Below, in pieces: positions 45,479 to 62,030 of a DNA stretch of 64,000 nt. Origin of the DNA: Acuticoccus sp. MNP-M23. GTDB taxonomy: Bacteria; Pseudomonadota; Alphaproteobacteria; Rhizobiales; Amorphaceae. The translations under genes were made by a program, and so were the position numbers. The notes beneath the pieces are model-generated. The model saw only the letters and a program-made list of their open reading frames with translations. It did no database searches and was not told the origin of the DNA. Numbering within the stretch: the first letter of the stretch is position 1; every line of letters begins with the position of its first letter. The stretch spans positions 1,054,001 through 1,118,000 of the forward strand of contig NZ_CP133480.1 of NCBI RefSeq assembly GCF_031195445.1. Reading direction: 5' to 3'.

Positions 45479-46687
45479 CTAGTGCTCTCCCGTCCGCTTC
45501 AGCCGCAGGCGGGATCGGCGGCGACCGCGGGTTTGAAAATAAACGCATTCATCAAAGGTGCCCTCTTCGTAGGCGCCTTCGTTCTTCGGTACATCGGTGA
45601 CGTTCCGTGCACTCGGATATTTCTCGATCTCTTCTTCCACCAGCTCGACGCCGAGGCCCGGAGCATCCGGCACCGGCAAGGCACCATTCACAGCCTTCAG
45701 TACCGGCGACACGACCTCATACCGACCGGACCAGTCGAACTCGATCCGCTCCAGCATCAGGGCATTCGGAATGGTCGCCATCACGTGCAGCGCGGCGAAT
45801 TCCGCCACCGGCCCCAGCGAGCCGGAGTGCGGCGCCATGGTGATGAACTGGGCTTCGGCCATCGCCGCCATCTTGCGCATCTGCGTGATGCCGCCGGCGC
45901 GCCCCGTGTCGGGCTGGATCACGTCGACGAGCTGCCGGTCGATGTAGGGCCGGATCCCCCAGATCGTGCTGACCCGCTCACCCGCTGCCAGCGGAATATC
46001 GACCGCATCGCGCACCTTCGCCAGCGCATCGAGATTTTCCGGGGCGACCGGATCTTCGTAAAACAGGAGGTCGAGCGGTTCCAGTTCGCGGCCCACGAGG
46101 ATCGCATCGCGGGTGGTCATCCAGGACGGGCCGTGCGCGTCGACCATCAGATCGACGTCCGGCCCCACCGCGTCGCGGATAGAGGCGACGAGATCGAGAT
46201 TCACAGCGCCCGTGAAGCTGACCTTTGCCGCTTTGTAGCCGCGATCAATCAGTTCGCGCGCCCGTTCCGGCGTCGTGGCATGACCGTAGACGGGGATGGT
46301 GTCGCGGAAACGGCCGCCGAGCAGGTTCCAGACCGGCTGACCCAGCACTTTCCCCTTGATGTCCCACAACGCCATTTCGATGCCGGTCAGCGCACCGCCG
46401 CCGACGGTGCCGGTCATGCCGTGCCCCATCGCGCCGATGTATAGGCGATGCCACAGGCGGTCGATGTCGCGCGGGTCCTCGCCGACGAGGAGGTGGGCGA
46501 AATCCTGCACCGCCCTTTCAATCACCCGAGGCCAGCCCGAGCATTCGCCGATGCCGGAAACACCCTCGTCGGTCTCGATCCTGACGAACAACCAGTTGCG
46601 CGAGCCGCGAAAGGAGCCCTCAGCGGTGGCAAGGCCCGGCCGCCCGCCAACCTGCATCAGATAAGTCTTGATCTCGGTAATTTTCAC
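45479..46687 (-). CDS. Enolase-superfamily acid-sugar dehydratase (GalD-like mandelate racemase family)
   Basis: A 402-residue MR/MLE-type enzyme. Metal and acid/base positions: VDLMVDAHGPSW (Asp and His of a D-x-H-G motif as in galactonate dehydratase), LLFYEDPVAPEN (Glu), LAAGERVSTIWG (Glu) and FITMAPHSGSLGPVA (His). I start at GTG 46687 (VKITEIKTYLMQVGG); an in-frame extension to 46969 encodes part of an unrelated ABC ATPase. Sugar acid dehydration to a 2-keto-3-deoxy acid fits with the lactonase downstream. Confidence 0.83.
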   Translation of the reverse strand: MKITEIKTYLMQVGGRPGLATAEGSFRGSRNWLFVRIETDEGVSGIGECSGWPRVIERAVQDFAHLLVGEDPRDIDRLWHRLYIGAMGHGMTGTVGGGALTGIEMALWDIKGKVLGQPVWNLLGGRFRDTIPVYGHATTPERARELIDRGYKAAKVSFTGAVNLDLVASIRDAVGPDVDLMVDAHGPSWMTTRDAILVGRELEPLDLLFYEDPVAPENLDALAKVRDAVDIPLAAGERVSTIWGIRPYIDRQLVDVIQPDTGRAGGITQMRKMAAMAEAQFITMAPHSGSLGPVAEFAALHVMATIPNALMLERIEFDWSGRYEVVSPVLKAVNGALPVPDAPGLGVELVEEEIEKYPSARNVTDVPKNEGAYEEGTFDECVYFQTRGRRRSRLRLKRTGEH

Positions 46688-46696
46688 AGGAGCGCC

Positions 46697-46880
46697 CTCA
46701 GGTTTTTTTTTCTTGGTATCGGCAGTGCAGACAGCCTCGGCATCGCCGGGTTCGACGATCCTTCCACGATACATGACCGCGAGGCGGTTGCAGAAACAGC
46801 GGATCACCGCAACGTCATGGCTGGTCGGGATGAAGCTGAGGCCGAGCCGCGCCTGAAGGTCGAGGATTGGCGTGCGCAGG
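46697..46880 (-). pseudogene. Oligopeptide/dipeptide ABC ATPase fragment
   Basis: On the minus strand, in frame with the downstream dehydratase gene, ILDLQARLGLSFIPTSHDVA is followed by VIRCFCNRLAVMYRGRIVEP and GDAEAV, the stretch after Walker B of Dpp/Opp-type ATPases (normally LLDLQ...FISHDLAVVR). Walker A, signature and C-terminus are missing. It is a relic, apparently from a peptide-type transporter once near the sugar-acid genes. Confidence 0.75.
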
Positions 46881-47201
46881 CTCGCAGTTGCGCCGGTGCC
46901 GCGGACGATCACCGGGACCCGGATCAGCGCGGCTGGGCCGGCGGGCATCGCAAACGACCAGGGCGCCACCTGACGTTCTTCGGCAATCAGGCGCGAGACT
47001 TCAGGACCGAAGTCGATGGCGGCGACCTCTGCGCGGGACGAGGGTTACTCGCCCCAAACGCCGCGCGATCGAGCGTCATTCCGGTTGGGCCTGGACGACC
47101 TTCGATGATGCTGCCTGTTTACAGGCTTCGGGCTGACCTGCCCCATGAGCGGAACACCGCCATACGGGCTCCGCTTCTGCGTTCGGCGCGCAGGACGCCG
47201 C
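46881..47201. other. Debris upstream of the ABC ATPase relic
   Basis: About 320 bases without an intact gene. A minus-strand frame reads AAIDFGPEVSRLIAEERQVA and APWSFAMPAGPAALIRVPVI directly into the ATPase relic, probably a second gene fragment joined by deletion. I cannot assign it. Confidence 0.4.
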
Positions 47202-48197
47202 TCACTCGGCGGGAAACACCTTCGTCCAGTCGTTCTTCATGCTGATGAGGTGCCAGCCTTCGGTGGGGGCCGCGTCGAGCGCCTTGGAGAGTTTGCCGAA
47301 ATGGGAGTCGCGGTCGTAGGCGAACTCGCGGGCGGCATCGTCGTGGTGGACGATCATGCCGAGCCGCCGGCCCTCGCCGCCCGTGGTCCAGGCCAGCATC
47401 TCGAAATCACCGTCGGAATTGCCGAACGCTGCAATCGGCCGCTTGCCGATGTGGTTCTGGATCCCGACCGGCTTTCCCGGCCCGTCATCAACAAAATCCA
47501 CCGCATCCAGACGCTGGAGCGACGGACCTGCATCGCCCGCCACGTATTTCAGCTTCACCGACGATCCGACGACGTTCCGCGGCCCGATGCCGTAGACCGC
47601 TTCTGTCCACGGACGCATGAAGGCAATCCCGCCGCCCGAGACGATGAAGACCTCGAACTCATTGTCCTTGAGGTAATTCACCAGCTCCAGCATCGGCTGA
47701 AAGATCATCTCGGTGGCAAGCTTGCCGGTTTTCGGGTTCTTCGCCGTCTTGATCCAGTCCGAGACGATCGACGCGAATTCATCCGTCGTCATGCCCGAAT
47801 GGGTCGCGCCGATGATTTCGAGCACGCCTTTCTTGCCGCTGGCAGCAATCCCGGCGACATCGCCCGCAAGAACGGACTTGAACGGCTCGGTCGTCTTCCA
47901 CTCGGGGTGCTGGGGCGCCAGTGCCTTCACCCGGTCCAGTGCGAACTGGAGCTGAACGTACATCGGCTGCTCGCTCCACAACGTCCCGTCATTGTCGAAT
48001 GTCGCGACGCGGTCTTCGGGAGCAACATAGTCCGGCCCGCCATCGGTGGTGACGGCGCCCACGAACTCGAGGATCGCCTGCTTGTTGGGGCCATCGTTCC
48101 AGGAGGGAAGCGGATCGTCCGCCGCCAGGGCGGGGAAGGAGAATGCGAGAACCGCCGCAGCCGCGATCGCTCGCATCGCCGAAAGTTGGAATGCCAT
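47202..48197 (-). CDS. Exported HAD-family hydrolase (acid phosphatase-like)
   Basis: A 331-residue haloacid-dehalogenase phosphatase with a signal peptide (about residues 1-25, ending ALAA). Motif I is FDNDGTLW (nucleophile Asp and DxDGT pattern), motif II EVFIVSGGG, motif IV AAFGNSDGDFEML. It should act in the periplasm on a phosphate or phosphonate ester. It lies 71 bases downstream of the outer-membrane protein gene on the same strand and is likely co-transcribed. Confidence 0.82.
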   Translation of the reverse strand: MAFQLSAMRAIAAAAVLAFSFPALAADDPLPSWNDGPNKQAILEFVGAVTTDGGPDYVAPEDRVATFDNDGTLWSEQPMYVQLQFALDRVKALAPQHPEWKTTEPFKSVLAGDVAGIAASGKKGVLEIIGATHSGMTTDEFASIVSDWIKTAKNPKTGKLATEMIFQPMLELVNYLKDNEFEVFIVSGGGIAFMRPWTEAVYGIGPRNVVGSSVKLKYVAGDAGPSLQRLDAVDFVDDGPGKPVGIQNHIGKRPIAAFGNSDGDFEMLAWTTGGEGRRLGMIVHHDDAAREFAYDRDSHFGKLSKALDAAPTEGWHLISMKNDWTKVFPAE

Positions 48198-48268
48198 GCC
48201 GGCACCTCCTCAATCTTGTTGTTATCGCACGACGCTCGGTGCGGGCGCGGTGGCGTTCGCAGAAGCGG

Positions 48269-49111
48269 TCAGAAGCGCAGCGTGGCGCCGATCATGGGTC
48301 CGTGCATCTTCATGTCGAACTCGAACCCGTCGTCGTCATAGTCGACGCCAAGGCCGCGATAGCCGATCGTCGCGGAGAAATTATCGCCGACATCGTAGCT
48401 CAGCCCGCCGAGGACATCCCACGCGAAGGCAGACGAGCCGCCGCCGGCCAGCGCCGTGCCGGTCAGGTGGATGCGCTCGGTCAGCGCGAAGCGCCCCCTG
48501 ACACCGGCCATCGCGTCGACCCAGGTCGCCTGGTCGCTGAAGGAGCGGCCATTGAGGAGGCCGCCCTTCAACGCGATGGTGTCTTCAACGTGCCAAAGGC
48601 GTGGGCCGCCGACGAGGTCGATCTGAACCCTCTCATCGTCGACGACGGCGTACCCCGCAAGGGCGGTCATCTCCAGCGTCTTCACCTTGAGATCGGCGCG
48701 ATCGGCAAGAACCTGGAACGGCGTCGAGGCGCCGCTCGACATGCTGATGTAGATCAGGTCCGTCGACAGGCTGAACCGGCCGCGGCGCGCCTGTGAGGCG
48801 AGCATGACCGACATGTGAAGGTCTTTCAGGATGTCGCCGAAACGCATGTCCACATCGACAGGCGGCGCACCGAATGCAGAGGCGGTGCCCGAAAGGCTCG
48901 CCATCCAGAAATAGGGCGTCACGTCGAATGACCATTCCGGCGCAGGCGGCTTGGCTTCCGGCACGGGTTCAACGAGCACATCGGCAGCATCGGCGGGTGC
49001 GCCGGCAAGCATGCCAAGGATCAAGGCGAACGCCATCGCGCTGCCGCGCCTCGAAAACGCGCCCCGCCCATTGGCGGCAGGCGCCGTCCGACCGTCTTGT
49101 GTGAAGCGCAT
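48269..49111 (-). CDS. Outer-membrane beta-barrel protein
   Basis: A 280-residue protein with a signal peptide (about residues 1-43, ending DAAD region) and a C-terminal strand ending in Phe (GPMIGATLRF), the usual outer-membrane insertion signal. WSFDVTPYFWMASLSGTAS and ALTERIHLTGTALAGGGSSA resemble barrel proteins common in Rhizobiales. Function unknown. The ATG at 49111 has GGGAGGGA just upstream; longer frames exist but lack support. A TGACGCAA-type motif lies 89 bases upstream. Confidence 0.72.
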   Translation of the reverse strand: MRFTQDGRTAPAANGRGAFSRRGSAMAFALILGMLAGAPADAADVLVEPVPEAKPPAPEWSFDVTPYFWMASLSGTASAFGAPPVDVDMRFGDILKDLHMSVMLASQARRGRFSLSTDLIYISMSSGASTPFQVLADRADLKVKTLEMTALAGYAVVDDERVQIDLVGGPRLWHVEDTIALKGGLLNGRSFSDQATWVDAMAGVRGRFALTERIHLTGTALAGGGSSAFAWDVLGGLSYDVGDNFSATIGYRGLGVDYDDDGFEFDMKMHGPMIGATLRF

Positions 49112-49200
49112 CGCGATCCCTCCCCGTCGTTGCGGAAATAGAGCAGTTTTTTGCATCCGGTGGAGATGAGGGTAGCGGGACGTCTCTCCGGACGGCTTGT

Positions 49201-49212
49201 CAAATTGCGTCA
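49201..49212 (-). promoter_or_regulatory. TGACGCAAATTG-type motif upstream of outer-membrane protein/HAD operon
   Basis: Read toward the gene, TGACGCAATTTG matches 11 of 12 bases of the motif that is perfect at 51297-51308 and 51349-51360. It is 89 bases from the start codon at 49111. Confidence 0.5.
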
Positions 49213-49259
49213 ATCAAACATTGCACCACGAAATTGCTCGTTTTCGCGACATTTATACC

Positions 49260-51215
49260 TCAAAGAGGGCCATACTGCCGGCGCAACGCGCCAAGGTTCG
49301 GGTCGGCAGGGTTGGCATAGAGCGCATCGCGCAGCGTTTCCCGTGCGACTGGGATTTCGCCCATCGCAGCCGCAATCCGGACGAGCATCACCCAGGCCTC
49401 CACGCGCTGCGGATCCATGGTGACGACCTCCCGGAAAGCGTCGCGCGCGGCTTCGAATTCGCGGTTGGTCAACGCGATGCCGGCGCGCTGAAGCTGCGTC
49501 TCGGGGAAGTCGAGCCGGCTTGCGACTGCGCTTTTCCACTCGCCGTCCGCCCGCGCCAGCGCGTCGCGCGCTGCTTGCGGGATGGTCTCTGCCGGGATGC
49601 CTGCCAGGGCGCGTGCAGCGGCGATCCGTACGTTCCGCCGGGTGTCGTCAAGAAGGGGGGTCAGGCGACTGACGCGTTCGGCAGGCGCGGCCAACCGCTG
49701 CACCTCGGTGGCCGCGGCGCGCACCAGCGCATCGGGGTCGGCCAGCAACGCGGCGGACCGCGGCGCCGCTTCGGCGATGCCGGAGCGTGCGAGGAGCCAG
49801 AGCGCCGTGCCGCGCACGACGCCGGGCATCTCGCTGTTCTGCGCAAGGCTGAGGAGCGCCGCGGAGGCCTGCGCGGGATCGGCCTGGCCGGCCGCGAGGG
49901 TCGTGCCGTAGTGCGCGCCGCGGTTGTCGCTACCCGGAAACCAAGCGGCGATCTGACCAGCTGCCCACGCCGGATCACGGTCGGCATGACAGGTCGTGCA
50001 GGCGTCTGGCGCACCGGTCATGCCGGCGAGATCAGGCCGCGGGATGCGGAAGGAATGATCGGCCCGCCAGTCGTTGCCCATGTAGACGCGCTCGACCATG
50101 TGGCAGCTCTTGCACGCCGCCCCCGGTGTCCCCGCCTCGTGATGGGTGTGCGCGGGGCTGTCGTAGTCCGCCGGCACGATGGAGGGGAATTCCGGATTGC
50201 CGGCCGGGTTGTGGCACTGGGTGCAAACGGCATTGCCGGCCGCCTTCAGACGCGCCGCGTGCGGCTCGTGGCAATTGGTACACGTCACGCCCTTGGCATA
50301 CATTTTCGACTGGAGGAACGAGCCGTAGACGTAGACCTCGTCCAGCGTCTGCCCATCGGCATGGTAAAGGCCGGGGAGGAGAAGGGAGAGGTTGTAGGCG
50401 TCGTCGAAGGGGGTGCCGGGCGGCGGCGTTCCCGCAGCCAGAGGCTCGCGGCGCGAGTGGCAGCCCGCACATTGCTCGATGGCGGCCGCCGGGTCGCTGG
50501 TATCGACGGGCAGGCCGGCGTTGGGCAGGTCGCCGGCGGCACCCTCGCCCGAAGCCGAGGCGACATGGATGCTGCCCGGCCCGTGACACGCCTCGCAGCC
50601 GACACCCTTCTCGACCTGTTTTGACGCGAACATCTTGGTCAGCGGATCGTAGTTCTTCTCGTAACCCGTCGCGTGGCAGACTGCGCAGCGGCCGTTCCAT
50701 GTCTTGTAGGGGCCGGTCCAGTGCATCCCGTCATCCGGCGCGAGATTGCTACCGGCGTAGAGGTGAAACCAGCGCTCGGCCTCAGTGTCCCAGACGACAT
50801 CGAAACTTTGCAGCCGGCCGGGCTCGGTCTCCAGCAGATATTGCTGGAGCGGCTCGATCCCCACGACCGAGTGGACCGGGTAATTGCGCCGGGAGCCATC
50901 CGCCTCGGTCACGTCCACTTCGTGGGTGCCGTCCGGACCGACCGAGAATCGAGCGATCATGTCTCCGTCGGTGAAACTGGTTCCGTCGAAATCGGCGACC
51001 ACCGTTGCCGCGGACGGGTCCGTCCACGCGAGCGCATGGTGGGAGCCTTCCCAGCTGCGCGCAGCATCCTCGTGGCAGCCGGCGCATGCTTGCGACCCGA
51101 CATAGCGCGCCGCCGGGACCTCCTGGGCAACGCCATCGAACGCCACGCCCGCAATGATGGCAAGAAGTCCGACGAAGAGGCCGAGCAGAATGATGCGATA
51201 CACGGGCGACCTCAC
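49260..51215 (-). CDS. Octaheme c-type cytochrome with repeat C-terminus
   Basis: A 651-residue exported protein anchored or cleaved by an N-terminal hydrophobic segment (about residues 8-30). Eight CxxCH heme motifs: CAGCH, CAVCH, CEACH, CAGCH, CTNCH, CTQCH, CKSCH and CTTCH, all in the first two thirds. The C-terminal third has HEAT-like repeats (LLDDTRRNVRIAAARALAG) and a TPR-like part (FREVVTMDPQRVEAWVMLVR). The fold resembles multiheme oxidoreductases with doubled CxxCH motifs; the electron donor and substrate are unknown. Transcribed alone, divergent from the MscS-type channel gene. Confidence 0.85.
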   Translation of the reverse strand: MRSPVYRIILLGLFVGLLAIIAGVAFDGVAQEVPAARYVGSQACAGCHEDAARSWEGSHHALAWTDPSAATVVADFDGTSFTDGDMIARFSVGPDGTHEVDVTEADGSRRNYPVHSVVGIEPLQQYLLETEPGRLQSFDVVWDTEAERWFHLYAGSNLAPDDGMHWTGPYKTWNGRCAVCHATGYEKNYDPLTKMFASKQVEKGVGCEACHGPGSIHVASASGEGAAGDLPNAGLPVDTSDPAAAIEQCAGCHSRREPLAAGTPPPGTPFDDAYNLSLLLPGLYHADGQTLDEVYVYGSFLQSKMYAKGVTCTNCHEPHAARLKAAGNAVCTQCHNPAGNPEFPSIVPADYDSPAHTHHEAGTPGAACKSCHMVERVYMGNDWRADHSFRIPRPDLAGMTGAPDACTTCHADRDPAWAAGQIAAWFPGSDNRGAHYGTTLAAGQADPAQASAALLSLAQNSEMPGVVRGTALWLLARSGIAEAAPRSAALLADPDALVRAAATEVQRLAAPAERVSRLTPLLDDTRRNVRIAAARALAGIPAETIPQAARDALARADGEWKSAVASRLDFPETQLQRAGIALTNREFEAARDAFREVVTMDPQRVEAWVMLVRIAAAMGEIPVARETLRDALYANPADPNLGALRRQYGPL

Positions 51216-51296
51216 AAGAGCGGTTCGATGACGGGCGGCGGCGTCCAGATTCCGAGCATCGCCCGCAATCTATGTCGCGGCTTTTTCAGCGCTTGG

Positions 51297-51360
51297 CAAT
51301 TTGCGTCACCGCCTTTGCGAACGTCGCCCGGCGTCTTCCATAGCGGCCTGACGCAAATTG
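51297..51360. promoter_or_regulatory. Inverted 12-base motif pair in the cytochrome/MscS divergent promoter
   Basis: CAATTTGCGTCA at 51297-51308 and its exact reverse complement TGACGCAAATTG at 51349-51360 lie 40 bases apart. Each copy reads TGACGCAAATTG toward its own gene: 81 bases from the cytochrome start (51215) and 50 bases from the channel start (51411). An exact 12-base inverted pair is unlikely by chance. Confidence 0.65.
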
Positions 51361-51410
51361 CAAAGGGCAGACCTCAGAATTCGGCAACAGTTTCTCAGTT
51401 CAAGCAACAA

Positions 51411-53402
51411 ATGGATCGTGACCGCGCTGTGTCAGACATTGTCATTACTGTCCCCGCGAACACGCCGGTGGAAGAACTTTCACGGATCCATGCGATTTTC
51501 CCCGAGGCGGGGTTCGTCGCCCCGGCGGCGGCCTCCGCTCCGCCGAGCCTGGACGATGCGTTCGCCGCGGCCGTGGTGGCGGCGAAATCCTTCCCCGCCG
51601 ATCTCGCCAGCGCCATTGCAGCGGCCGGCGGCCTTACCCCGATCCTTTACATGCTGGCCGCAATCGCGGCGGGAATCGTGGCAGAATGGGTGGTCCGTCT
51701 CACGGCGCTGAGGGGCCTTGGCAAGGACGCGCCCGGCGCCGCCAGCGGGCGCTTGCGCGATCGTGCACCGCGCGCGGCGAGATATGTTGCCTCGCGGCTG
51801 ATCGCGCTTGCGGTCTTCACCGTCGTGGCCTTCATGGCCGGGCGCCTCCTCCATCTCGACAGCGAGGCCCGCATTCTCGGCCGTGCCGTGATCATGGCGG
51901 TGGTTTTCGCGCGCATTCTTTATCTGTTTGTCTCCGTCAACGCCGCGCCGGCCGCGCCGCAACGCCGCCTGATGGGCTTTACCGACGCTGAGGCGCGGGT
52001 GGTCCAGCGCGCGGGTGTCGCCATCGCAATCGCGGTCGGCCTCATCGGAACGCTGCGCGGCTTCGTCACCATGGCGGTCGGCACACATGCCTCCGGCGAG
52101 CTTCCGCGCCTCGCGCTCGCGGTCGCGCTGGGGCTTGCGACGGTTCTCTTCTTCACCGCAATCCGCAGACCGCTCGGCAATCTGATCGGACGCTCCCTCG
52201 CCAGCGATGGCGAGGCGAAGCCGGGCTGGGGGACACGCATCGCGCGGCGGACGGTCTCGGTCTTCATCATCCTCGTCATTCTCGATGTGATGGTGAAGTG
52301 CCTCGGCGCCCTGGGCCTTCTGGGCGCAGCTGCTGCGTCCGGCGCAGGGTCCACCGTGTTTCTCCTCGTGCTCGCCCCGCTGGTGATTGCGGGGATCCGG
52401 ATCTGGGTCAGCGAACTCGACGACAACGAGAAGACGCCGATGGTCCTTGCCGCCTTCGCGCTTGCGGAGGGCGCGGTGATCGTCGGCATCGCGTCGCTCC
52501 TGTTCACCGCCTGGGGGATCCAGCCCTTTGGCGAGACCGAGGCCACTGGGTTTGCCGCCGTCGTGCCGCGCATCATGGAAGCAGGCGTGATCGTCGTTGT
52601 CGGCGTTGCCGTGTGGCGGGCGATCCTCGGTATCCTCGGCGAAGCGCATGGCGATGACGCCGAGGACGATGCCGCCCCGGTCGAGCATGGCGAGATGGGT
52701 GGCGGTGGCGGCGACAGGATGGACACGATCCTGCCCATCCTGCGGGGCGCCTCGTTCGTGCTGGTGATCCTCGTGACGATGTTCACCGCGCTCACGTCGC
52801 TCGGCGTCAACATTGCGCCGCTGATCGCTTCGGCCGGTGTCCTCGGGCTCGCGATCGGCTTTGGCGCCCAGACCCTCGTCACCGACATCATCAGCGGGCT
52901 GTTCTACCTTTACGAAGATGCGCTCCGGGTCGGAGAATACATCGAGACCGATGCCGGCGGCGGCGCGGTCGAGCGGATCTCGCTGCGTTCGGCAACGCTG
53001 CGCCACTCGCGCGGCGCGCTCATCACGGTGCCCTTCTCCAAGATGGGGACCATCCGCAACAACAGCCGCGACTGGGCGGTGATGAAGTTCTCGTTCCGTG
53101 TTCCGGCCGACACCGACGTCGAGATGGTGCGCAAGCTGGTCAAGAAGGTGGGCGAGGAGATGGCGCTCAATCCGGAACTGAAGGACAGCATCATCGCACC
53201 GCTGAAATCGCAGGGTGCGATCTCGATCACCGGGCGGAGCTACGAAATCGGCTGCAAGTTCACCGCGGTTCCGGGCCAGCAGTTCGGGCTTCGCCGCCAC
53301 GCCTTCGCAAAGCTGCAGAAGGCTCTCAAGGAAAAGGGTGTTTCTCTGGCGGGCCAGGATCTGGACCTGTCGCAGATCGCGAACCCCGCCAAGGCGGCAT
53401 GA
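51411..53402 (+). CDS. Large MscS-family mechanosensitive channel
   Basis: A 663-residue membrane protein with about ten helices and a C-terminal MscS core: the pore helix region GVLGLAIGFGAQTLVTDIIS, then GLFYLYEDALRVGEYIETD and VERISLRSATLRHSRGALIT, followed by the cytoplasmic alpha/beta part. MscS channels open on membrane tension to release solutes. The N-terminus at 51411 has no clear signal peptide, unlike many long MscS proteins, so the start is uncertain. The gene ends 11 bases from the convergent AraC gene. Confidence 0.83.
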   Translation: MDRDRAVSDIVITVPANTPVEELSRIHAIFPEAGFVAPAAASAPPSLDDAFAAAVVAAKSFPADLASAIAAAGGLTPILYMLAAIAAGIVAEWVVRLTALRGLGKDAPGAASGRLRDRAPRAARYVASRLIALAVFTVVAFMAGRLLHLDSEARILGRAVIMAVVFARILYLFVSVNAAPAAPQRRLMGFTDAEARVVQRAGVAIAIAVGLIGTLRGFVTMAVGTHASGELPRLALAVALGLATVLFFTAIRRPLGNLIGRSLASDGEAKPGWGTRIARRTVSVFIILVILDVMVKCLGALGLLGAAAASGAGSTVFLLVLAPLVIAGIRIWVSELDDNEKTPMVLAAFALAEGAVIVGIASLLFTAWGIQPFGETEATGFAAVVPRIMEAGVIVVVGVAVWRAILGILGEAHGDDAEDDAAPVEHGEMGGGGGDRMDTILPILRGASFVLVILVTMFTALTSLGVNIAPLIASAGVLGLAIGFGAQTLVTDIISGLFYLYEDALRVGEYIETDAGGGAVERISLRSATLRHSRGALITVPFSKMGTIRNNSRDWAVMKFSFRVPADTDVEMVRKLVKKVGEEMALNPELKDSIIAPLKSQGAISITGRSYEIGCKFTAVPGQQFGLRRHAFAKLQKALKEKGVSLAGQDLDLSQIANPAKAA

Positions 53403-53413
53403 GCGTCGCCCCT

Positions 53414-54466
53414 TCAGTCTGCGCGCAAGGGTTGCCGATTCTGCCGGGTGCGGCTGGTGGCCTCCCGGTAGGTCGAGGGGGGACAGCCAACCTGCCGCCG
53501 GAATGCGCGGCTGAAGGTGGCATGATCTTCGTAGCCCAGAGAAAGCGCGATATCGACCATCGACAGTTCGGTGTCCTGCAAGAGGGCCTCGGCGCGCTTC
53601 TGGCGCGCGACATTGACGATCTCGCGGTAGGAGAAGCCCCCTTGCCGCAACCGCCGCTGAAGCCCCTGTACGCTGAGGCCGGCCATCTCGGCCGTGCCGT
53701 CGATGTCGGCGCGGCCATCGAGAAGACGCAGGGCCACAAGGGCCCCGATCGACCGCGCCGGCTCCGGCTGATCGGCAATCACCCCCTCCGCCACAACCTC
53801 TCGCATCGTTATCGGGGGTCTGTTTTGCGCCAGCGCGGTCTTGAGAGGCTCGGACAGATCGGTCGGCTTCAGGACAATGCCGATGCCGGGCTTTTCAAAA
53901 AAAACAGGAGCCTGCAGCTTCTCCTCGATCAGTCCGGCATCCGCATCGCGCTTGTAGTTGAGCTCGATGGCTTCGGGCTCCCAGTCGAGGCCCAGATATT
54001 GCCGGCAGAGCAGAAGCATCGGGCCGATGACGTGATCGGCATGCGTCTGGACACTGGCCTCGAAGGGCCGGATCGAATACCGCCAGATATAGCGCTCCCC
54101 GGTCCGATTGAGCGAAAGGCCGGCTCCGGTCTGATGCATCGGGAGGGTGGCGCAGAGACGTCTGATTGCGGTGGCGAGGTAAGGTGCCGTCGCGCCGTAC
54201 TGCCTCCAGAGTCCGTAGGCATTCGCGGCCATGATCTGCCCCACTTCGAGGCCGAAGGCGCGGTCGCCGAGGATGCGGGCCGACCGATCGAAGAGCGCAA
54301 CCATCGCGCTGAGCGGGATCGGCATTTGCGGCGAATCAATGACCGCGTACGGGATTTTCAACGACTCGAACGTTTTCAGAAACGCGTGCTCGCCAGCCCG
54401 TTCCTCAAGAAGGCGTGGCAGCGGGCCGAACCCGTTGGCCCGCGTGAGATCGACGGAAAATGCCAA
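53414..54466 (-). CDS. AraC-family transcriptional regulator (OruR/GbuR type)
   Basis: A 350-residue regulator with an arabinose_bd-type N-terminal domain (YAVIDSPQMPIPLSAMVALF, LYGL-like segment AYGLWRQYGATAPYL) and a C-terminal AraC double helix-turn-helix (about residues 235-335: MAGLSVQGLQRRLRQGGFSY, VDIALSLGYEDHATFSRAFR). It lies in the middle of the envelope cluster and is the best candidate to bind the TGACGCAAATTG motif, though none was seen at its own promoter. Confidence 0.87.
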   Translation of the reverse strand: MAFSVDLTRANGFGPLPRLLEERAGEHAFLKTFESLKIPYAVIDSPQMPIPLSAMVALFDRSARILGDRAFGLEVGQIMAANAYGLWRQYGATAPYLATAIRRLCATLPMHQTGAGLSLNRTGERYIWRYSIRPFEASVQTHADHVIGPMLLLCRQYLGLDWEPEAIELNYKRDADAGLIEEKLQAPVFFEKPGIGIVLKPTDLSEPLKTALAQNRPPITMREVVAEGVIADQPEPARSIGALVALRLLDGRADIDGTAEMAGLSVQGLQRRLRQGGFSYREIVNVARQKRAEALLQDTELSMVDIALSLGYEDHATFSRAFRRQVGCPPSTYREATSRTRQNRQPLRAD

Positions 54467-54674
54467 AAAAAATCTTCCTTCGCTCGGTCAGACAATCACC
54501 CTCACCGGAAATGATGCATAAAATAACCTTTGAGATTTGTATATTGGGAAATAACCACCAGGAGACTGGCGGCTTCAGAAGAGATTCGGTTTGCCGAACG
54601 TTGCGCGGCGCTCCAGCATCGCGCTGAAACGCCGGCTCACCAGCAACACGCCGGTCGATGGTTTCCGGCCCGGC
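54467..54674. other. Intergenic stretch around the AraC promoter
   Basis: About 200 bases, AT-richer than average near 54460-54560 (GATGCATAAAATAACC, TTGTATATTGGG), which fits a promoter for the minus-strand AraC gene. No motif shared with the other envelope genes was found. Confidence 0.3.
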
Positions 54675-55493
54675 CTACTTCGGAAACAAGAGCGAGAAGT
54701 TGGCGCGCAGGCCCCAGTCCGGACCGTATTTCGGGCGGTTGACATACACGCGCCCACCAGCCTGAAAGCTCGCCGGCTGGTCTCCGATCGTGAAGACCTT
54801 GGTGTACTGGGCGTTGATCGGCACCGTCGCCTGCTCGCTGTTCCAGTTGTACGTGGTTTCGGTGTCGAGCGTCAGCGTCTGGCCACTTCCCAGCGCATAG
54901 GCCACGAATGGCTGCACGAAGGTGGCGTTGACTTCTGCATTCTTGTCCACGGACCAGATGTGGTTGGCGAGCGTGCCAAAGGTCCATCGCCCTTCCTGGA
55001 TGAGTCCGACTGCTGTGGGGCCGATGCCGAATTGCCCGGTTCCGAGCAGCTTGTCCGTGGCCGTCGGCAGGTTGAACACGGGGCCGACGCCCCAGATCAG
55101 GCCACCCGGCCCTGGTGCGGTGGGCGATAAAAACAGGCTTTGCACGGTGTCGCCGATGCCGAACACGTCGCGGGGATAGATGTTGGTCTCCCACTTCACC
55201 GGGACGATCGTGCGGGAAATGAGATTCCAGCTCTCGTTGATCCGGATCGGGATGACGGGCTGGATGTTGAGCGTCTGGCTGACGCCGTCGCCATCGGGAC
55301 CGATGCCAAAGTCGATGTTGTACTGGAACGGCACGCTGACGAGGCTGGCGATGGGGTTCGACAGCTGTTTGGCAAGCTCATCGGCCTTGTCCTGAGCCAT
55401 TGCCGGCGAACTGCAAAGCAGCGCCGCCACAGCCGAAAGCATTGTGACGGAGAGAAGGGATCGGGGCGAGCGGCGGTTCGGACGCAGAGACAT
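54675..55493 (-). CDS. Outer-membrane transporter-like protein (phenol-MetA family)
   Basis: A 272-residue exported protein with signal peptide (about residues 1-34, ending AMAQ) and a predicted beta-barrel ending NFSLLFPK. LISRTIVPVKWETNIYPRD, GLIWGVGPVFNLPTATDKLL and FGIGPTAVGLIQEGRWTFG match the MetA-pathway-of-phenol-degradation family, suspected outer-membrane channels for hydrophobic compounds. It follows the sulfatase gene, but a strong hairpin lies between them. Confidence 0.78.
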   Translation of the reverse strand: MSLRPNRRSPRSLLSVTMLSAVAALLCSSPAMAQDKADELAKQLSNPIASLVSVPFQYNIDFGIGPDGDGVSQTLNIQPVIPIRINESWNLISRTIVPVKWETNIYPRDVFGIGDTVQSLFLSPTAPGPGGLIWGVGPVFNLPTATDKLLGTGQFGIGPTAVGLIQEGRWTFGTLANHIWSVDKNAEVNATFVQPFVAYALGSGQTLTLDTETTYNWNSEQATVPINAQYTKVFTIGDQPASFQAGGRVYVNRPKYGPDWGLRANFSLLFPK

Positions 55494-55527
55494 TTGAGAG
55501 CCTGTCATTTTGTTGCTGAAAAGGTTT

Positions 55528-55560
55528 GACGCAGGGCCATGCTTTCGAGGGCCCTGCGTC
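55528..55560 (-). terminator. Strong stem-loop between sulfatase and outer-membrane genes
   Basis: GACGCAGGGCC (55528-55538) pairs perfectly with GGCCCTGCGTC (55550-55560) around an 11-base loop. Downstream on the minus strand comes AAACCTTTTC, a weak T-tract. It probably terminates or attenuates transcription from the sulfatase operon into the barrel gene. Confidence 0.65.
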
Positions 55561-55637
55561 GCTTTTCGTGCTCATGAAAGGCAGCGTCAGAAACGCGGTC
55601 GCTGTTCAGCGAAGCCGCGTTTCATTCGGCATGCCGG

Positions 55638-57461
55638 TTACGGGGTCGGGCGACCGACGCCGCGTTCCTTGAGCATTTTCTCCACGCCACCGCGGACTTC
55701 GGGCGCCAGGTTGTAGAGCGCCGGGTTGTTGCCCACGAAGCCGATCTTGAACTGCGGCGGGAACTTCATCAGCTCGGCCATGTAGTCGCCCGAGGCCGAC
55801 ATCAGCGGCACGGTGGCCGGAATGTGCCGGATGCCGACGTTCACGTCTTCCTGCGGATTGGCGTAAAGGTTGAACATGACGGCGCCGCCGGTGTCGTGGA
55901 AGATGGTGCCGCTGAAGCCACCCCAATTACCCTTCTGCACGATCGAGTCCTGGATCTCGCCAGTGAACATGTACTTGAACTCGTCGATACGCATCGCGCC
56001 GAAGTACTGGTTGATGGTGTAGGGCCGGCTGCGGCGGTTGGATTCGCCGTCGTCTGCAAGAAGGAACGACATCTGGTCCACACCGTCGATGTAGGTCTTC
56101 TCGTCGAAGAGCTTGCCGATATCGCCGCCCTTGACGCCGGTGATCGACATGGCGGTCGGCAGGATGTCGGCGAAATCGAACAGGCCATCGGAACGGCGCG
56201 CCGGGATCATGTCCTTCCAGTAGGCGAAGGTCGGGACGCGAACGCCACCTTCCCAGTTGGAGCCCTTGCAGCCACGGAACGGCGTGCGGCCATGCGGCGG
56301 GATCTCGCATTCCGGACCGTTGTCCGAGGTCAGCAGGATCAGCGTGTTTTCGAGCTGGCCGGTTTCTTCCAGCTTGTCGACCAGAGAGCCGAACACGTCG
56401 TCCATTTCGACCATGCAGTCGGAGTACACGGTGTGCGCCGCGGACTTGCCGGCGTAGTCGTCGCTCGGATAGTTGTCGAAGTGGCAGCCGCGCGTGGCGT
56501 GATACAGGAAGAACGGATCGTCCGCGTCTTTCTGCTTCTCGATGAAGTCGAGGCTGACGTCCTTCCAGTGCTGGTCGAGATCCTTGATGTAATCCAGGTC
56601 GATCAGCTTGCCGTCTTCACACTTCTCGGTGTCCGCCGCGGTGCAGTGGACTTCGTTGTGGTTGAACTCGTCCTCAACCATCATGTCGAAGCGGGACGGG
56701 GACAGCGCGATTTCCGGGTTCAGGTAGATATCGCGCCACTCGGTGTACATGTCCGACACGCCGAGGAAGCCGACATAGTCGTCGTAGCCGACGTTCTGCG
56801 GCAGCGAACCCTTGTTCTCGCCCATGTGCCACTTGCCGACGCCTTGGGTCGTATAACCCTTGTCCTTCAGGAGCTTGGGCAGCGTGGTCGCACCGTCGAG
56901 GCCACCGGACTCGCCGTACATCGGCGGCCGCAGGATGCCGTGGTGCAGCGGGTTCTGGCCGGTGTGGATGGTCGCGCGGCTCGGTGAGCAGGAGGGGGTG
57001 GAGTAGGCGGAAGTGAGCAGGAGGCCGTCTTCTGCCAGCTCGTCCATGTTCGGCGTGGCGTTGCCGACGGCGACACCACCGCCGTTGAAGCCCATGTCCA
57101 TCCAGCCCACGTCGTCGAGCAGGAAGACCATGATGTTCGGCTTCTTGCCGGTCTTGGCTTCCAGCGCTTCGAGCTTGGCCACTGCGGCCTTGTCCTGATC
57201 GGGACGCTGCAGCGCGGGGTACATGTTGTCGGCCGGTTTCACACCCTTCATGTGGAGCGAGAATCCCGGGTAGTCGAAGCCCTTGGCCGAGGTCGGCCCG
57301 GTCGTCGAGCCACGGGGATTACCGGCATCCTGTGCAATTGCTGCAGCAGGCACCAGAACGGCAAGTGAAAGCGCAGCGGCAAGACCCCGCGCGCCCCAGG
57401 CTGCACCCGTTCCAGATGTTCGGCTACGAAGCCGATCATTCTGCAATAAACAGTGCCTCAT
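55638..57461 (-). CDS. Exported type I (formylglycine) sulfatase
   Basis: A 607-residue arylsulfatase-family enzyme hydrolysing sulfate esters. Signal peptide about residues 18-44 (ending AIAQ); metal-binding MVFLLDDVGWMDMG (two Asp); the formylglycine site is Cys158 in PSCSPSRATIHTGQNPLHHG, matching CxPSR; GVGKWHMGENKG holds the conserved Lys and His; LLTSDNGPE gives the second Asp-Asn metal pair. It needs a formylglycine-generating enzyme, which is not in the window. The N-terminus is Arg-rich without a twin-Arg motif, so Sec export is likely. Third in an operon after DUF2092-like and small exported protein genes. Confidence 0.9.
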   Translation of the reverse strand: MRHCLLQNDRLRSRTSGTGAAWGARGLAAALSLAVLVPAAAIAQDAGNPRGSTTGPTSAKGFDYPGFSLHMKGVKPADNMYPALQRPDQDKAAVAKLEALEAKTGKKPNIMVFLLDDVGWMDMGFNGGGVAVGNATPNMDELAEDGLLLTSAYSTPSCSPSRATIHTGQNPLHHGILRPPMYGESGGLDGATTLPKLLKDKGYTTQGVGKWHMGENKGSLPQNVGYDDYVGFLGVSDMYTEWRDIYLNPEIALSPSRFDMMVEDEFNHNEVHCTAADTEKCEDGKLIDLDYIKDLDQHWKDVSLDFIEKQKDADDPFFLYHATRGCHFDNYPSDDYAGKSAAHTVYSDCMVEMDDVFGSLVDKLEETGQLENTLILLTSDNGPECEIPPHGRTPFRGCKGSNWEGGVRVPTFAYWKDMIPARRSDGLFDFADILPTAMSITGVKGGDIGKLFDEKTYIDGVDQMSFLLADDGESNRRSRPYTINQYFGAMRIDEFKYMFTGEIQDSIVQKGNWGGFSGTIFHDTGGAVMFNLYANPQEDVNVGIRHIPATVPLMSASGDYMAELMKFPPQFKIGFVGNNPALYNLAPEVRGGVEKMLKERGVGRPTP

Positions 57462-57617
57462 CTATTCCTCCTTGAGTGGAACTTTTGGCCATTTCTCTCG
57501 AAACAGCTTTACTGGATCGGCAACGTTACGGATTCTTCGATGCCGAATACGGCCAACAGAAAGTTCGCCGCATAAAGTGTGCCGCTACCGAGCCGAGGGC
57601 TGTCCCCGTCCGCTCGG

Positions 57618-57842
57618 TCAGCAGCCGTACATGCGGCGGGCGCAGCGGCGGATCGTGCGCCGTGTGGTACGGCGCGCCACGCCTGCGACGCTCAACGGCG
57701 TGAGAGGCCGCCCGACGATTGCGTGAGCTGGCCCGACAATGCTGCTCACCCCGGGAACCGACACTCCGGTGCCGTTCTCCATGACGCTGGCCACGAGCAG
57801 GATCGACAAGGCGAAGAGGCTGACGCGCGTCTTGACGGTCAT
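57618..57842 (-). CDS. Small exported basic protein, 74 residues
   Basis: MTVKTRVSLFALSILLVASV starts a short frame with a clear signal peptide, a small middle region and a strongly basic tail (RRTTRRTIRRCARRMYGC). Its ATG overlaps the stop of the DUF2092-like gene (TGATG), which supports real translation. No function is known to me. The basic tail with two Cys could bind nucleic acid, anionic polymer or another envelope protein. Confidence 0.6.
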   Translation of the reverse strand: MTVKTRVSLFALSILLVASVMENGTGVSVPGVSSIVGPAHAIVGRPLTPLSVAGVARRTTRRTIRRCARRMYGC

Positions 57843-58651
57843 CACTGGTCTCCAAGTTTGAAGTGGGACGGAATCTCGTTGGCGAGGGCGCGCAGTTCTT
57901 CGAAGCTGACCAACGTCGCGTCGTCCATCGCGTCGAAGGTGAAGGCGGCTTCGGCGACCTTGCCGCCGGTCGCCCAGTCGTCGAAATCGATCTGGTAGCG
58001 CGGTGCGCCTTCGATATCCTCCGACGTGATGACGTACCGGCACGGCAGGGGGCGGTCGCCCTGCGCCACGAAGATCTGCCAGTCGACAGTTTCGGTCCGA
58101 AGCGCGATGTGGTCGCACATCACGCCGCCGATCACGCCCGCGCCGAGATCCTTGACGTCGGTGACGCCGTCCATCAGCACCGCATAGGGATCTGCGACCA
58201 GAATGTCGGCGCCGGGGACCGGAAAGCCGTACTGGTCATGCAGGACGTCGAGCAACTGCTCGACGCTGCCGGAATATTCAGCCGTCGCGTAGGCGTCGGC
58301 GTTTCTGCCGGCGACCGTCACATCCGTCCCGTCGAACATCATTTCGACATCGGAAAAGCCACCGGTCCGGGTCGCGTGAAGACGACCGTCGCGATCGAAA
58401 GCGACCCCGCCAGACGACGCGATGCTGACGACCTGCCCCTCGTCCGTTACGACATCGAGCGCCGTGTCATACGCAAAGGCGATTGATGTCTGAGACACCA
58501 GCGTATCCGACATCTTTCTCAGGATCTTTTTTGCTTCGGCGCTTTCCGCGAAAACTGGTTGGCTGCCAGCGGCAACAAACATGGTCGCCAGAATTACGCC
58601 AGTTGTGATCGTCGATGCGGCAGGTCGGAGTTTTATGCTGCTTTTTGACAT
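57842..58651 (-). CDS. DUF2092-like exported protein
   Basis: A 269-residue exported protein with signal peptide (about residues 1-35, ending VFAE). AKKILRKMSDTLVSQTSIAF, VEQLLDVLHDQYGFPVPGAD and VMCDHIALRTETVDWQIFVA match DUF2092, a family thought to adopt a LolA-like half-barrel. It may carry a lipid or hydrophobic ligand in the periplasm. First gene of the sulfatase operon. The ATG at 58651 is chosen because it starts the signal peptide directly. Confidence 0.75.
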   Translation of the reverse strand: MSKSSIKLRPAASTITTGVILATMFVAAGSQPVFAESAEAKKILRKMSDTLVSQTSIAFAYDTALDVVTDEGQVVSIASSGGVAFDRDGRLHATRTGGFSDVEMMFDGTDVTVAGRNADAYATAEYSGSVEQLLDVLHDQYGFPVPGADILVADPYAVLMDGVTDVKDLGAGVIGGVMCDHIALRTETVDWQIFVAQGDRPLPCRYVITSEDIEGAPRYQIDFDDWATGGKVAEAAFTFDAMDDATLVSFEELRALANEIPSHFKLGDQ

Positions 58652-58915
58652 GGGCCTTGCACGTTCCAGACAATGCACCCGGATTCATCGAACCAGGTTT
58701 GCAAGCATCATCCAAAGGCCCTGGCAGGGCGAATGCCTTTGCATATTGCGTCGAGCAGCCGATATTTTTCGAATTGGTGCGCAGAAAACCGCCGCTCCGG
58801 TCAGCGCGGCGGGTGCGACCCTGCCACTGCTGAAGCGTTGCTATGAGCGGACGTTCTGCGTTGGCGCCCGAGACCCGGCAGCCGCTCCTGGAGGGATGCT
58901 GCCCACGTCCCCGAA
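58652..58915. other. Promoter region of the sulfatase operon
   Basis: About 260 bases between the DUF2092-like start and the MFS stop, with no gene seen. It contains CATATTGCGTCG at 58742-58753; read toward the operon this is CGACGCAATATG, nine of 12 to the TGACGCAAATTG motif, and it lies 90 bases from the start codon, as for the barrel/HAD operon. Confidence 0.4.
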
Positions 58916-60301
58916 CTATCGGCCGGCGGGCCACACCGGGTGGTGATCGTCGATGACGAATGGGTGGGCGTGCCGGACCGGCCGATGGCGGTGCCAGTCC
59001 GTCGACAGCTGGTCGATGGCGCTGGCGCCGTGGTGAACGTCGTCAGCAAAATCGTGACTGTGCTCGACGGCATCGTGAAAATGGTCGATTACATCGGGAT
59101 CGTGTCGCGGCCACAGAACCGCGGCCGCCGCGGTGCCGAAAATTGCACCGAGCGCCATCACAATGAATGTCGGCCCCAGACCGAAGCTCGATCCAAGCCA
59201 ACCGGCCACAGGGTATGTGATGAGCCAACAGGCATGCGAAAGGGCAAACTGCGCGGCATAGAGCGTGGGGCGGTCTTCGGCATGGGACGAACGGCGCAGC
59301 AGCAGCCCCGCCGGCGTCTGGATCAGCGATGCGCCGATCCCCATCACGCCCCACAACCCTGAGATGGCCACGAGGCTGGACGATGCGCTGGCGAGCACGA
59401 GCGCCACCGGGAGGATCGCGCTGCCGGCCAGCATCACCGTCCGTGGCGCGAATTGTGGCTGGTCCTGAGGGCCGCCGAAGAGAAGGCGCGGCAATGCGAG
59501 CGCCACAACCATGGAGCCAAGCCCGTACGCGGCAAACGCGATCGCGACGTCACCGTCGCTGCCACCCAGTTCGCCCTTCACCAGAACGACGGTGTTGACG
59601 ATCACCATCGCGCCCGCCGAAGCGAGCGCGAAATTGAGCGCAAGCAGCCCCCGTAGCCGGGGCGTGGCGAGATAGATCCAGCTGCCGCGCGTCAGCCGCC
59701 GCAAGAATGGCTTGGCGGAGTTCTTGCCGCGCACCGCGGGCAGCGCAACGGACGCGACCAGCGCCGCGGATGCGAGAAAGCCGAGCGCATTGCCCACGAA
59801 CAGCCAGTGGAAGCTCACCAGCGTGAGCAGCGCGCCCGCCACCATCGGGGAGACGAGCGATTCCAGATCGTAGGCGAGACGGGACAACGAAAGCGCGTTT
59901 GTGTAGGCGCGTTCGTCGGCAAGAACCTCCGGAATGGTGGCCTGAAAGGTTGGAGTGAAGGCTGCCGAACAGGCCTGGAAGGCGAACACCAGCCCGTAGA
60001 CCTGCCAGAGTTCGGTCACGAATGGCAGAAAAAGGACCATCGCCGCGCGGGCAAGGTCGAGTCCGACAAGGAAGGCGCGGCGCGGCACACGGCCGGCGAG
60101 CGCACCCGCAATCGGCGCGATCCCGACATAGGCGATCATCTTGAGTGCGAGCGCGGTGCCCAGAACGCGCCCCGCATCCGCGCCGGCAAGATCGTAGGCG
60201 AGCAGCCCGAGCGCGACGGTCGTCAGCCCCGTCCCCAGAAGCGACAGCACCTGCGCGGCGAAGAGATGACGATAAATGCGGTTGTCGAGAACGGACAGCA
60301 T
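58916..60301 (-). CDS. MFS efflux transporter with His-rich C-terminus (NreB-like, nickel/cobalt)
   Basis: A 461-residue 12-helix major facilitator protein beginning MLSVLDNRIYRHLFAAQVLS. The last 60 residues hold about 13 His among acidic residues (DHFHDAVEHSHDFADDVHHG, WHRHRPVRHAHPFVIDDHH), as in nickel exporter NreB. The gene starts two bases behind a DmeR/RcnR-like metalloregulator gene, which makes Ni/Co efflux from the cytoplasm likely. Confidence 0.82.
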   Translation of the reverse strand: MLSVLDNRIYRHLFAAQVLSLLGTGLTTVALGLLAYDLAGADAGRVLGTALALKMIAYVGIAPIAGALAGRVPRRAFLVGLDLARAAMVLFLPFVTELWQVYGLVFAFQACSAAFTPTFQATIPEVLADERAYTNALSLSRLAYDLESLVSPMVAGALLTLVSFHWLFVGNALGFLASAALVASVALPAVRGKNSAKPFLRRLTRGSWIYLATPRLRGLLALNFALASAGAMVIVNTVVLVKGELGGSDGDVAIAFAAYGLGSMVVALALPRLLFGGPQDQPQFAPRTVMLAGSAILPVALVLASASSSLVAISGLWGVMGIGASLIQTPAGLLLRRSSHAEDRPTLYAAQFALSHACWLITYPVAGWLGSSFGLGPTFIVMALGAIFGTAAAAVLWPRHDPDVIDHFHDAVEHSHDFADDVHHGASAIDQLSTDWHRHRPVRHAHPFVIDDHHPVWPAGR

Positions 60302-60302
60302 C

Positions 60303-60623
60303 TCAGAGGTACCGCGTGATTGCTTTGAACTCGGCCAGATCGGCGCCCTGCCCTTCGCCGCTGCTGCGGACCGCAGCATCGAGGCAATTGTCGATATGAT
60401 CCTCGATCAACACGCGCCGGGCCCGACTGAGTGCCTTTTCCACCGCATGAAGCTGCTGCGCGATGTCCACACAAGGCCGCTCCGCCTCGATCATTCCGAC
60501 AACGGCCGCGAGGTGCCCGTGCGCCCGCTTCAGCCGCTTGATGACCAGCGGGTGGCTCGTGTGCTGATGCCCGGCGGGCTGCTCGCCGGCAGTGAGGGGT
60601 GTGTTCGCGGGCTGTTTCTTCAT
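60303..60623 (-). CDS. CsoR/RcnR-family metal-sensing repressor (DmeR-like)
   Basis: A 106-residue all-helical repressor. HPLVIKRLKRAHGHLAAVVG, then MIEAERPCVDIAQQLHAVEK and LIEDHIDNCLD, match DmeR-type sensors. Likely metal ligands are Cys50 region (RPC), the His and Cys of DHIDNC, and His in the N-terminal GHQHTSH. It should dissociate from its operator when nickel or cobalt binds, switching on itself and the MFS pump. A perfect C6/G6 palindrome lies ten bases before the start. Confidence 0.88.
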   Translation of the reverse strand: MKKQPANTPLTAGEQPAGHQHTSHPLVIKRLKRAHGHLAAVVGMIEAERPCVDIAQQLHAVEKALSRARRVLIEDHIDNCLDAAVRSSGEGQGADLAEFKAITRYL

Positions 60624-60632
60624 GCCGCGGAT

Positions 60633-60653
60633 ATATCCCCCCAGGGGGGATAT
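60633..60653. promoter_or_regulatory. CsoR/RcnR-type operator
   Basis: A perfect palindrome: ATATCCCCCC (60633-60642), a central A, GGGGGGATAT (60644-60653). G/C hexamer tracts flanked by AT are the recognition site of the CsoR/RcnR family. It overlaps the expected promoter or leader immediately upstream of the repressor start (60623). Confidence 0.85.
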
Positions 60654-60710
60654 GGGAAGCCCCTGGTTGCGGGTTTCAAGCGACCGCCCGCGGTCGGTGC
60701 GCGCGCATCA

Positions 60711-61643: not shown

Positions 61644-61655
61644 CAGGTTCGCCAA

Positions 61656-62030
61656 TCCAGTTGCGATTTGCCATTGGCAGACGCTATCGCCCGTAGCAAT
61701 TTTCGCGCCAACGCAGCTAAACGCCTCAACTTAGCAGTGATTTCGGACCAACAATCAGTCGAACGCCCAATTCGCGCCCTATTGTTAGGCAATTTCTGCG
61801 TAATTATTGCGCCAATCAACTCTATCTACTTCATCAGGAAAAGCGATAACGGAGATTATCTTCATCGTTTCGGCGCAAATCATCGAATTCAGCGCGTTGT
61901 CGCATTTGCATTCTTCAATGAGATGCTGAAGCGTCGGTGGTGTGAGTGGCAACCGGCGAAGGCTTCTTCGCGGAAGCTCGTTCCGGTCTGGGGCCGCGCA
62001 CAGACACAATCCAACGACGGAGTGAGATCA
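61656..62030. promoter_or_regulatory. Divergent LysR/TRAP promoter region
   Basis: About 375 AT-richer bases without a gene. GATAA (61845-61849) and TTATC (61856-61860) form an inverted repeat with six bases between, a possible regulator site, although the spacing is T-N10-A rather than the usual T-N11-A. TGCCATTGGCA at about 61670 is another small palindrome. Confidence 0.35.

Follow-up and report, generated by a model that had tools for sequence, protein, structure and literature searches.

Known systems and the Acuticoccus cluster

On plasmid pP62BP1 of Psychrobacter, the putative slf locus comprises an AraC-family regulator, SlfR, and a secreted alkyl sulfatase, SlfS, with predicted control by promoter repeats (PMC3346939). 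Another described sulfatase, PsFucS1, acts on fucoidan oligosaccharides; until its description no specificity was known for S1_13 sulfatases (PMC8484680). We analysed a 64,000-nt stretch (the window) of the Acuticoccus sp. MNP-M23 genome (contig NZ_CP133480.1, 1,054,001–1,118,000), in which an AraC-family gene lies in a cluster (47202–58753) encoding a sulfatase, an octaheme cytochrome, an MscS-family channel, a HAD-family hydrolase, a DUF2092 protein, a small basic protein and two predicted beta-barrels. Four transcription units of this cluster are each preceded by a copy of a 19-base site that is nearly unique to the cluster within the genome, and we lean towards the view that the cluster is an AraC-controlled regulon for processing organosulfates outside the cytoplasm. 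This gene combination was not described in titles or abstracts of the open-licence literature, among the matches listed.

The window resembles slf in having a secreted sulfatase and an AraC-family regulator with an Arabinose_bd domain (PF12625) and a helix-turn-helix (HTH) domain, and one related locus (L311; L numbers denote loci compared) pairs an AraC homologue with an alkyl sulfatase. The differences from slf are several. SlfS is a class III (metallo-beta-lactamase) alkyl sulfatase, whereas the window enzyme belongs to PF00884 and carries CSPSR, class III being found only in L311. The slf regulator is divergent from the sulfatase operon, whereas in the window both lie on the same strand; divergent arrangements occur in L278, L281, L310, L311 and L312. 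The window cluster has none of the dehydrogenases or the CoA ligase of slf and has in addition the octaheme cytochrome, HAD hydrolase, LolA-like (DUF2092) protein, small basic protein, MscS channel and barrels. The SlfR repeat as printed, TTGA(N6)AGGACA, differs in sequence from the window site. As it differs in two slf features (sulfatase class and divergent regulator), the window is not counted as a member of slf, although its cluster may work like one.

A 19-base site precedes four transcription units

A sequence-only reading of the window had reported four copies of a 12-base motif and proposed a single extracytoplasmic process under one regulator. The positions, orientations and distances of the copies were all reproduced. 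Perfect copies of the 12-mer TGACGCAAATTG lie at 51297–51308 (−) and 51349–51360 (+), and imperfect copies at 49201–49212 (−, 11/12) and 58742–58753 (−, 9/12). Every copy is oriented toward its own gene, at distances of 81 (GTG 51215), 50 (ATG 51411), 89 (ATG 49111) and 90 bases (ATG 58651), respectively. The four copies are parts of a single 19-base site with the core YGACGCAAWWTGMMAAG, present as TGACGCAATTTGACAAGCC (49194–49212, −) before the barrel 1/HAD unit, TGACGCAAATTGCCAAGCG (51290–51308, −) before the cytochrome gene, TGACGCAAATTGCAAAGGG (51349–51367, +) before the MscS gene and CGACGCAATATGCAAAGGC (58735–58753, −) before the DUF2092/small protein/sulfatase unit. The cytochrome and MscS sites are 40 bases apart, inside the divergent region between these genes.

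As a 12-mer with three mismatches the fourth copy was not significant, the window containing 34 such matches against 44.7 expected; it is thus separated from background only by the 19-base extension. Each site was then scored with a matrix from the other three, and both strands of 10 Mb of first-order Markov sequence were scanned for places scoring as high. The four sites were reached at 0, 0, 2 and 10 places, respectively, the expectation for the weakest copy being 0.064 per 64 kb.

The supposition that the motif stands above background genome-wide was borne out. In the 5,158,509-base genome the exact 12-mer occurred twice, both times inside the cluster, and allowing at most one mismatch gave 10 matches, three of them in the cluster, against two for the reversed control. 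Sites from other genomes were used to refine a 17-base pattern, YGDCGYRAWNTGMHAAG. It had five exact matches, four of which are the cluster sites by construction; with one mismatch it had 22 matches against 10 for the reversed pattern. An 18-base pattern with three mismatches (584 matches against 652 for the reversed control) was dropped as too loose. The fifth exact match of YGDCGYRAWNTGMHAAG (C1:2173315–2173331, L360) overlaps the 3′ end of a kinase-like gene, ~220 bases upstream of a run of TRAP transporter, Rieske oxygenase and reductase-like genes. It could reflect uptake and breakdown of a product, or chance.

The site in other genomes and the AraC-family protein

A matrix from the four window sites only was run on 158 foreign loci (2.80 Mb), some of them overlapping, with repeated contexts counted once. 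Matches were called module-upstream when they lay from 300 bases before to 150 bases after the predicted start of a sulfatase, cytochrome or MscS gene, on the same strand. At a score of at least 15, 9 of 28 matches were module-upstream against a background of 2.6% (p 2.7e-8, related loci not being independent), six at sulfatase, two at cytochrome and one at MscS genes, while the reversed matrix gave 0 of 8. At score 13, sulfatase genes made up 10 of the 15 module-upstream matches.

The nearest case comes from a congeneric genome (L050), in which MscS is divergent from a sulfatase other than that of the window, with one site each. Beside AraC homologues, sites were found upstream of a sulfatase-HAD-barrel 2 operon (L278), of DUF1254/DUF1214 genes (L279 and L280), of barrel 1 (L353, and L279 after a 107-amino-acid open reading frame (ORF)) and of an alkyl sulfatase of the metallo-beta-lactamase fold (L311). 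A site also lies upstream of a Phenol_MetA_deg barrel adjoining a sulfatase-HAD pair (L314, no AraC called in the stretch), and another ~150 bases upstream of a DUF1254 gene on an Agrobacterium plasmid. The strongest individual hint of organosulfates is that a site of this kind also precedes a sulfatase of another, unrelated class. All of these further sites illustrate the association and do not test it, since the matrix already contained sites from relatives.

The AraC-family protein (53414–54466, −; PF12625 92.9 bits, plus HTH_18) is, judged by sequence comparison, the likely reader of the 19-base site. Its nearest NCBIfam model was QhpR (NF049968), matched over residues 51–334 at 159.8 bits, and QhpR equivalence was rejected as the curated cut-off is 250. 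Among 199 genomes sampled from the host's order, a close homologue was present in 12, and 11 of these also carried the cytochrome or the HAD gene, compared with 37 of 199 overall. A second 17-base pattern, YGDCGYRAANTGVMAAG, which matches two of the four window sites, was counted by hand 19 times in these 12 genomes, some of which had contributed to the pattern, against 2 for the reversed control. The recognition-helix motif DHA.F.RAF was present in the window, L050, L278 and L280, and absent from the site-bearing loci L054, L113 and L279; recognition helices therefore do not support the pairing of protein and site. In relatives the site repeatedly adjoins AraC homologues, in agreement with the proposal of one regulator for the units, and a regulatory link between the AraC protein and the cluster appears well supported at the level of sequence.

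Conservation of the gene set

That the genes are conserved together, as the sequence-only reading would require, was seen in the pairing of cytochrome with sulfatase, in that of cytochrome with HAD, and in one plasmid run of Rhizobium binae. The 199 genomes contained 29 cytochrome loci, 22 of them usable, with at least 5 kb on both sides. A sulfatase gene lay within 10 kb in 20 of the 22, against 0.03 expected per locus (from 154 sulfatase genes at E 1e-25 in 26 of the 27 cytochrome genomes, G009 not included). Four of the seven short-flank loci (L066, L070, L071 and L072) had a sulfatase, whereas the other three had none before the contig ended. The association was weaker in a wider named set, to which the order itself contributed some loci: a sulfatase accompanied the cytochrome in 19 of 46 usable loci, 34 being left out. 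Eight plasmid cytochrome loci were opened (of 147 matching records), and seven had a sulfatase nearby. Genomes with the cytochrome (27) and with the HAD gene (32) overlapped in 22 of the 199 (p 4e-17, kinship uncorrected). Close sulfatase orthologues (66–72%; in one genome as two pieces) stood beside HAD and cytochrome genes in four genomes of another family.

The R. binae plasmid carries, in a single run, DUF2092-small protein-arylsulfatase-MscS-cytochrome-barrel 1-barrel 2, with identities of 24% for the sulfatase, 33% for MscS (residues 180–648) and 36–60% for the others. R. leguminosarum 248 combines DUF1254, DUF2092, small protein, an alpha/beta hydrolase, barrel 1, barrel 2, a formylglycine-generating enzyme (FGE) and a distant arylsulfatase. 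Outside the Acuticoccus genome DUF2092 had 23 matches, of which 14 loci were opened; the small protein adjoined it in 13 of them, and strong sulfatase, AraC or barrel neighbours were present in only 4 of the 14 (L346, L349, L350 and L353). The gene combinations thus vary across loci, indicating a kit with reshuffled and replaced members and no fixed operon. The MscS profile drifted (248 ORFs) and a single-sequence search was used instead; rows from the small protein profile, which also drifted (278-bit matches for a 74-amino-acid protein), were discarded. In L051, L056 and L112, runs of MoxR/DUF58/VWA (Bat-like) genes, seen in several genomes, lie between sulfatase and cytochrome.

Proteins encoded by the cluster

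The gene identities given by the sequence-only reading held for the sulfatase, octaheme cytochrome, MscS, HAD and DUF2092 proteins, and were weakly supported for the two barrels. Most of the cluster proteins are called exported, from N-termini judged by eye.

The type I sulfatase (55638–57461, −; PF00884 206.5 bits, cut-off 25), exported judging by its N-terminus, has the maturation motif C-x-P/A-x-R as CSPSRATIHTG at residue 158. Its best solved relative was PsFucS1 (PDB 7aj0, E 4e-99), and it was 56% identical to E. coli AslA across 85% of the query. FGE (PF03781) was above cut-off at three places in the genome (four rows, two being pieces of one frame), and FGE genes adjoined the kit in 11 loci. 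Of 101 sulfatase ORFs searched, 67 matched the maturation motif; 10 of the 34 others were inspected, and nine had CTAGR and one was a fragment. With the CSPSR motif and FGE genes in the genome, the window enzyme is probably an active, exported sulfatase. Of the functions proposed earlier, sulfate release is upheld by the motif and the FGE genes, whereas phosphate release has only the HAD fold behind it and pressure relief only the presence of MscS. A second sulfatase-HAD pair, with FGE directly after, was found at C1:1969–1973 kb (L287), with no site above score 13 ahead of the run.

The HAD-family hydrolase (47202–48197, −; PF12710 35 bits), also exported judging by its N-terminus, contains the motifs DNDGT at 68, SGGG at 187 and GNSDGD at 259, and matched PDB 4ovy at E 5.5e-119. 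Barrel 1 (48269–49111, −), a predicted outer-membrane beta-barrel, had a weak match to the outer-membrane protein model TIGR04219 (E 4.7e-5, 22.7 bits, far under the cut-off of 105), and its relatives adjoin sulfatase, HAD and cytochrome genes. Barrel 2 (54675–55508, −), a predicted beta-barrel of "transporter" type, had no match in Pfam or NCBIfam; relatives on plasmids are annotated "transporter". The octaheme c-type cytochrome (49260–51215, −) has eight CXXCH motifs and C-terminal HEAT/TPR repeats, with matches to Cytochrome_C7, C554, Paired_CXXCH, TPR and HEAT. The MscS-family channel (51411–53402, +; PF00924, PF21082 and PF21088) is large.

The DUF2092 protein (57842–58651, −; PF09865 196.4 bits, cut-off 21.2) is predicted to have a LolA fold: its model (mean predicted local distance difference test score (pLDDT) 83) matched LolA 8v1k in Foldseek at E 3.2e-11. 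LolA shares its fold with LppX and LprG. A link of DUF2092 to LolA was already made in PMC4520260, and in line with it the modelled fold of this putative periplasmic carrier suggests a hydrophobic cargo. Directly after it lies the gene for the small basic protein (57618–57842, −; 74 amino acids, no Pfam match), which has a signal-like N-terminus. An alignment of 13 sequences showed the invariant residues A.A..G.P.TP.S.AG..RR..RR. The family (the window protein, L345–L357, L394 and L395) has a signal-like N-terminus followed by [IV]GRPLTPxSxAGVARRTxRR, often with a C-terminal C..G.YYC, and appears as a basic peptide paired with the LolA-like carrier.

The MR_MLE, lactonase-like and MFS genes next to the cluster were in none of 32 loci compared and were therefore excluded from it. 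In the MR_MLE enolase-superfamily frame (45479–46969, −), residues 35–81 match the C-terminal region of oligopeptide ABC ATPases, which is probably the trace of an in-frame, decayed ABC gene upstream. Past the MFS gene at the cluster edge, a TRAP-type substrate-binding protein is encoded at about 62000–63014 (+), the 3′ part of frame 60276–63014 as judged by eye, with no site ahead of it among the best 25 matches.

Proposed function and alternative explanations

In the proposed regulon, the AraC protein would bind the 19-base site before the four transcription units and switch them on. The target would be a sulfated, probably amphiphilic, organic compound handled outside the cytoplasm, from which the exported formylglycine-type sulfatase would strip the sulfate. 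Both the HAD enzyme and the cytochrome may act on or beside the desulfated product, the cytochrome perhaps accepting or delivering electrons for a follow-on step. The two predicted barrels would let the compound, or what is made from it, cross the outer membrane, and the LolA-like DUF2092 protein would ferry a hydrophobic portion through the periplasm. Transport of a hydrophobic or amphiphilic molecule agrees with the presence of the barrels and of the DUF1254 and Phenol_MetA_deg partners. MscS could, as a guess, relieve the ion load after sulfate release.

Several observations weigh against this interpretation. Only a weak site, of 13.1 bits and on the opposite strand, lies across the start of the AraC gene, and YGDCGYRAANTGVMAAG also occurred in the other 187 genomes, which have no close AraC homologue, 76 times against 45 for the control. 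The site was not found ahead of the kit genes of R. binae (upstream region included) or R. leguminosarum 248, nor ahead of those in L162, L175, L183 and L194; the gene set and the site can occur apart. Of the 46 usable cytochrome loci in the wider set, 27 had no sulfatase within 10 kb. Nine plasmid regions from a barrel 2 search included only three with a sulfatase (L390, L394 and L395); eight had some kit gene, five of them only HAD, FGE, barrel 1 or DUF1254, and L398 had no recognisable kit gene. The cytochrome model (mean pLDDT 75, low in the heme part) gave only weak TPR/HEAT matches, none at E 0.001 among the best 50, and no fold is therefore claimed for the heme part.

A broader and more tentative reading is that a reshuffling kit (sulfatase, FGE, HAD, LolA-like carrier with its small cationic partner, two barrels and MscS) couples the desulfation of amphiphiles in the periplasm to an octaheme electron-transfer protein, the sulfatase subfamilies and the regulators (AraC, two-component, perhaps adenylate cyclase) being exchangeable. 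We regard this generalisation as doubtful at present.

Alternatively, the genes might form a general set for envelope defence or hydrophobic compounds, with the sulfatase as one exchangeable hydrolase and with MscS, the LolA-like carrier and the barrels answering envelope stress. The DUF2092 model also matches the envelope-stress sensor RseB, MscS is in the cluster, and barrel 2 relatives in L391, L397 and L399 accompany alpha/beta hydrolases, DUF1254 or DUF3604 with no annotated sulfatase. However, sites in foreign loci favour sulfatase genes, at score 13 as given above, one being ahead of an alkyl sulfatase, and FGE genes recur next to the kit; we consider this explanation rather unlikely. 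A smaller chance is given to two processes under one regulator: one would run through sulfatase, DUF2092 and barrel 2, and the other would be a distinct redox or osmotic response of cytochrome and MscS. The units are separate with a site each, a close MscS orthologue was found in only 2 of the 199 genomes, and most cytochromes of the wider set stand without a sulfatase; against this, cytochrome and sulfatase are neighbours in nearly all usable loci of the order, and in R. binae DUF2092 stands together with a different sulfatase, a different MscS, the cytochrome and both barrels. That the site recurs by chance, or serves some regulator unconnected with the cluster, as the excess of YGDCGYRAANTGVMAAG in genomes without a close AraC might suggest, is very improbable in view of its near uniqueness, the leave-one-out scores and its recurrence ahead of the same gene families.

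Many bacterial sulfatases are without a known substrate. A compact regulon with a near-unique operator offers a direct handle for finding the inducer, which would make the substrates of the AslA-like sulfatase, DUF2092, DUF1254 and octaheme cytochrome families testable together. If the AraC-controlled organosulfate regulon is real, it would also exemplify the coupling of a sulfatase system to a redox protein outside the cytoplasm.

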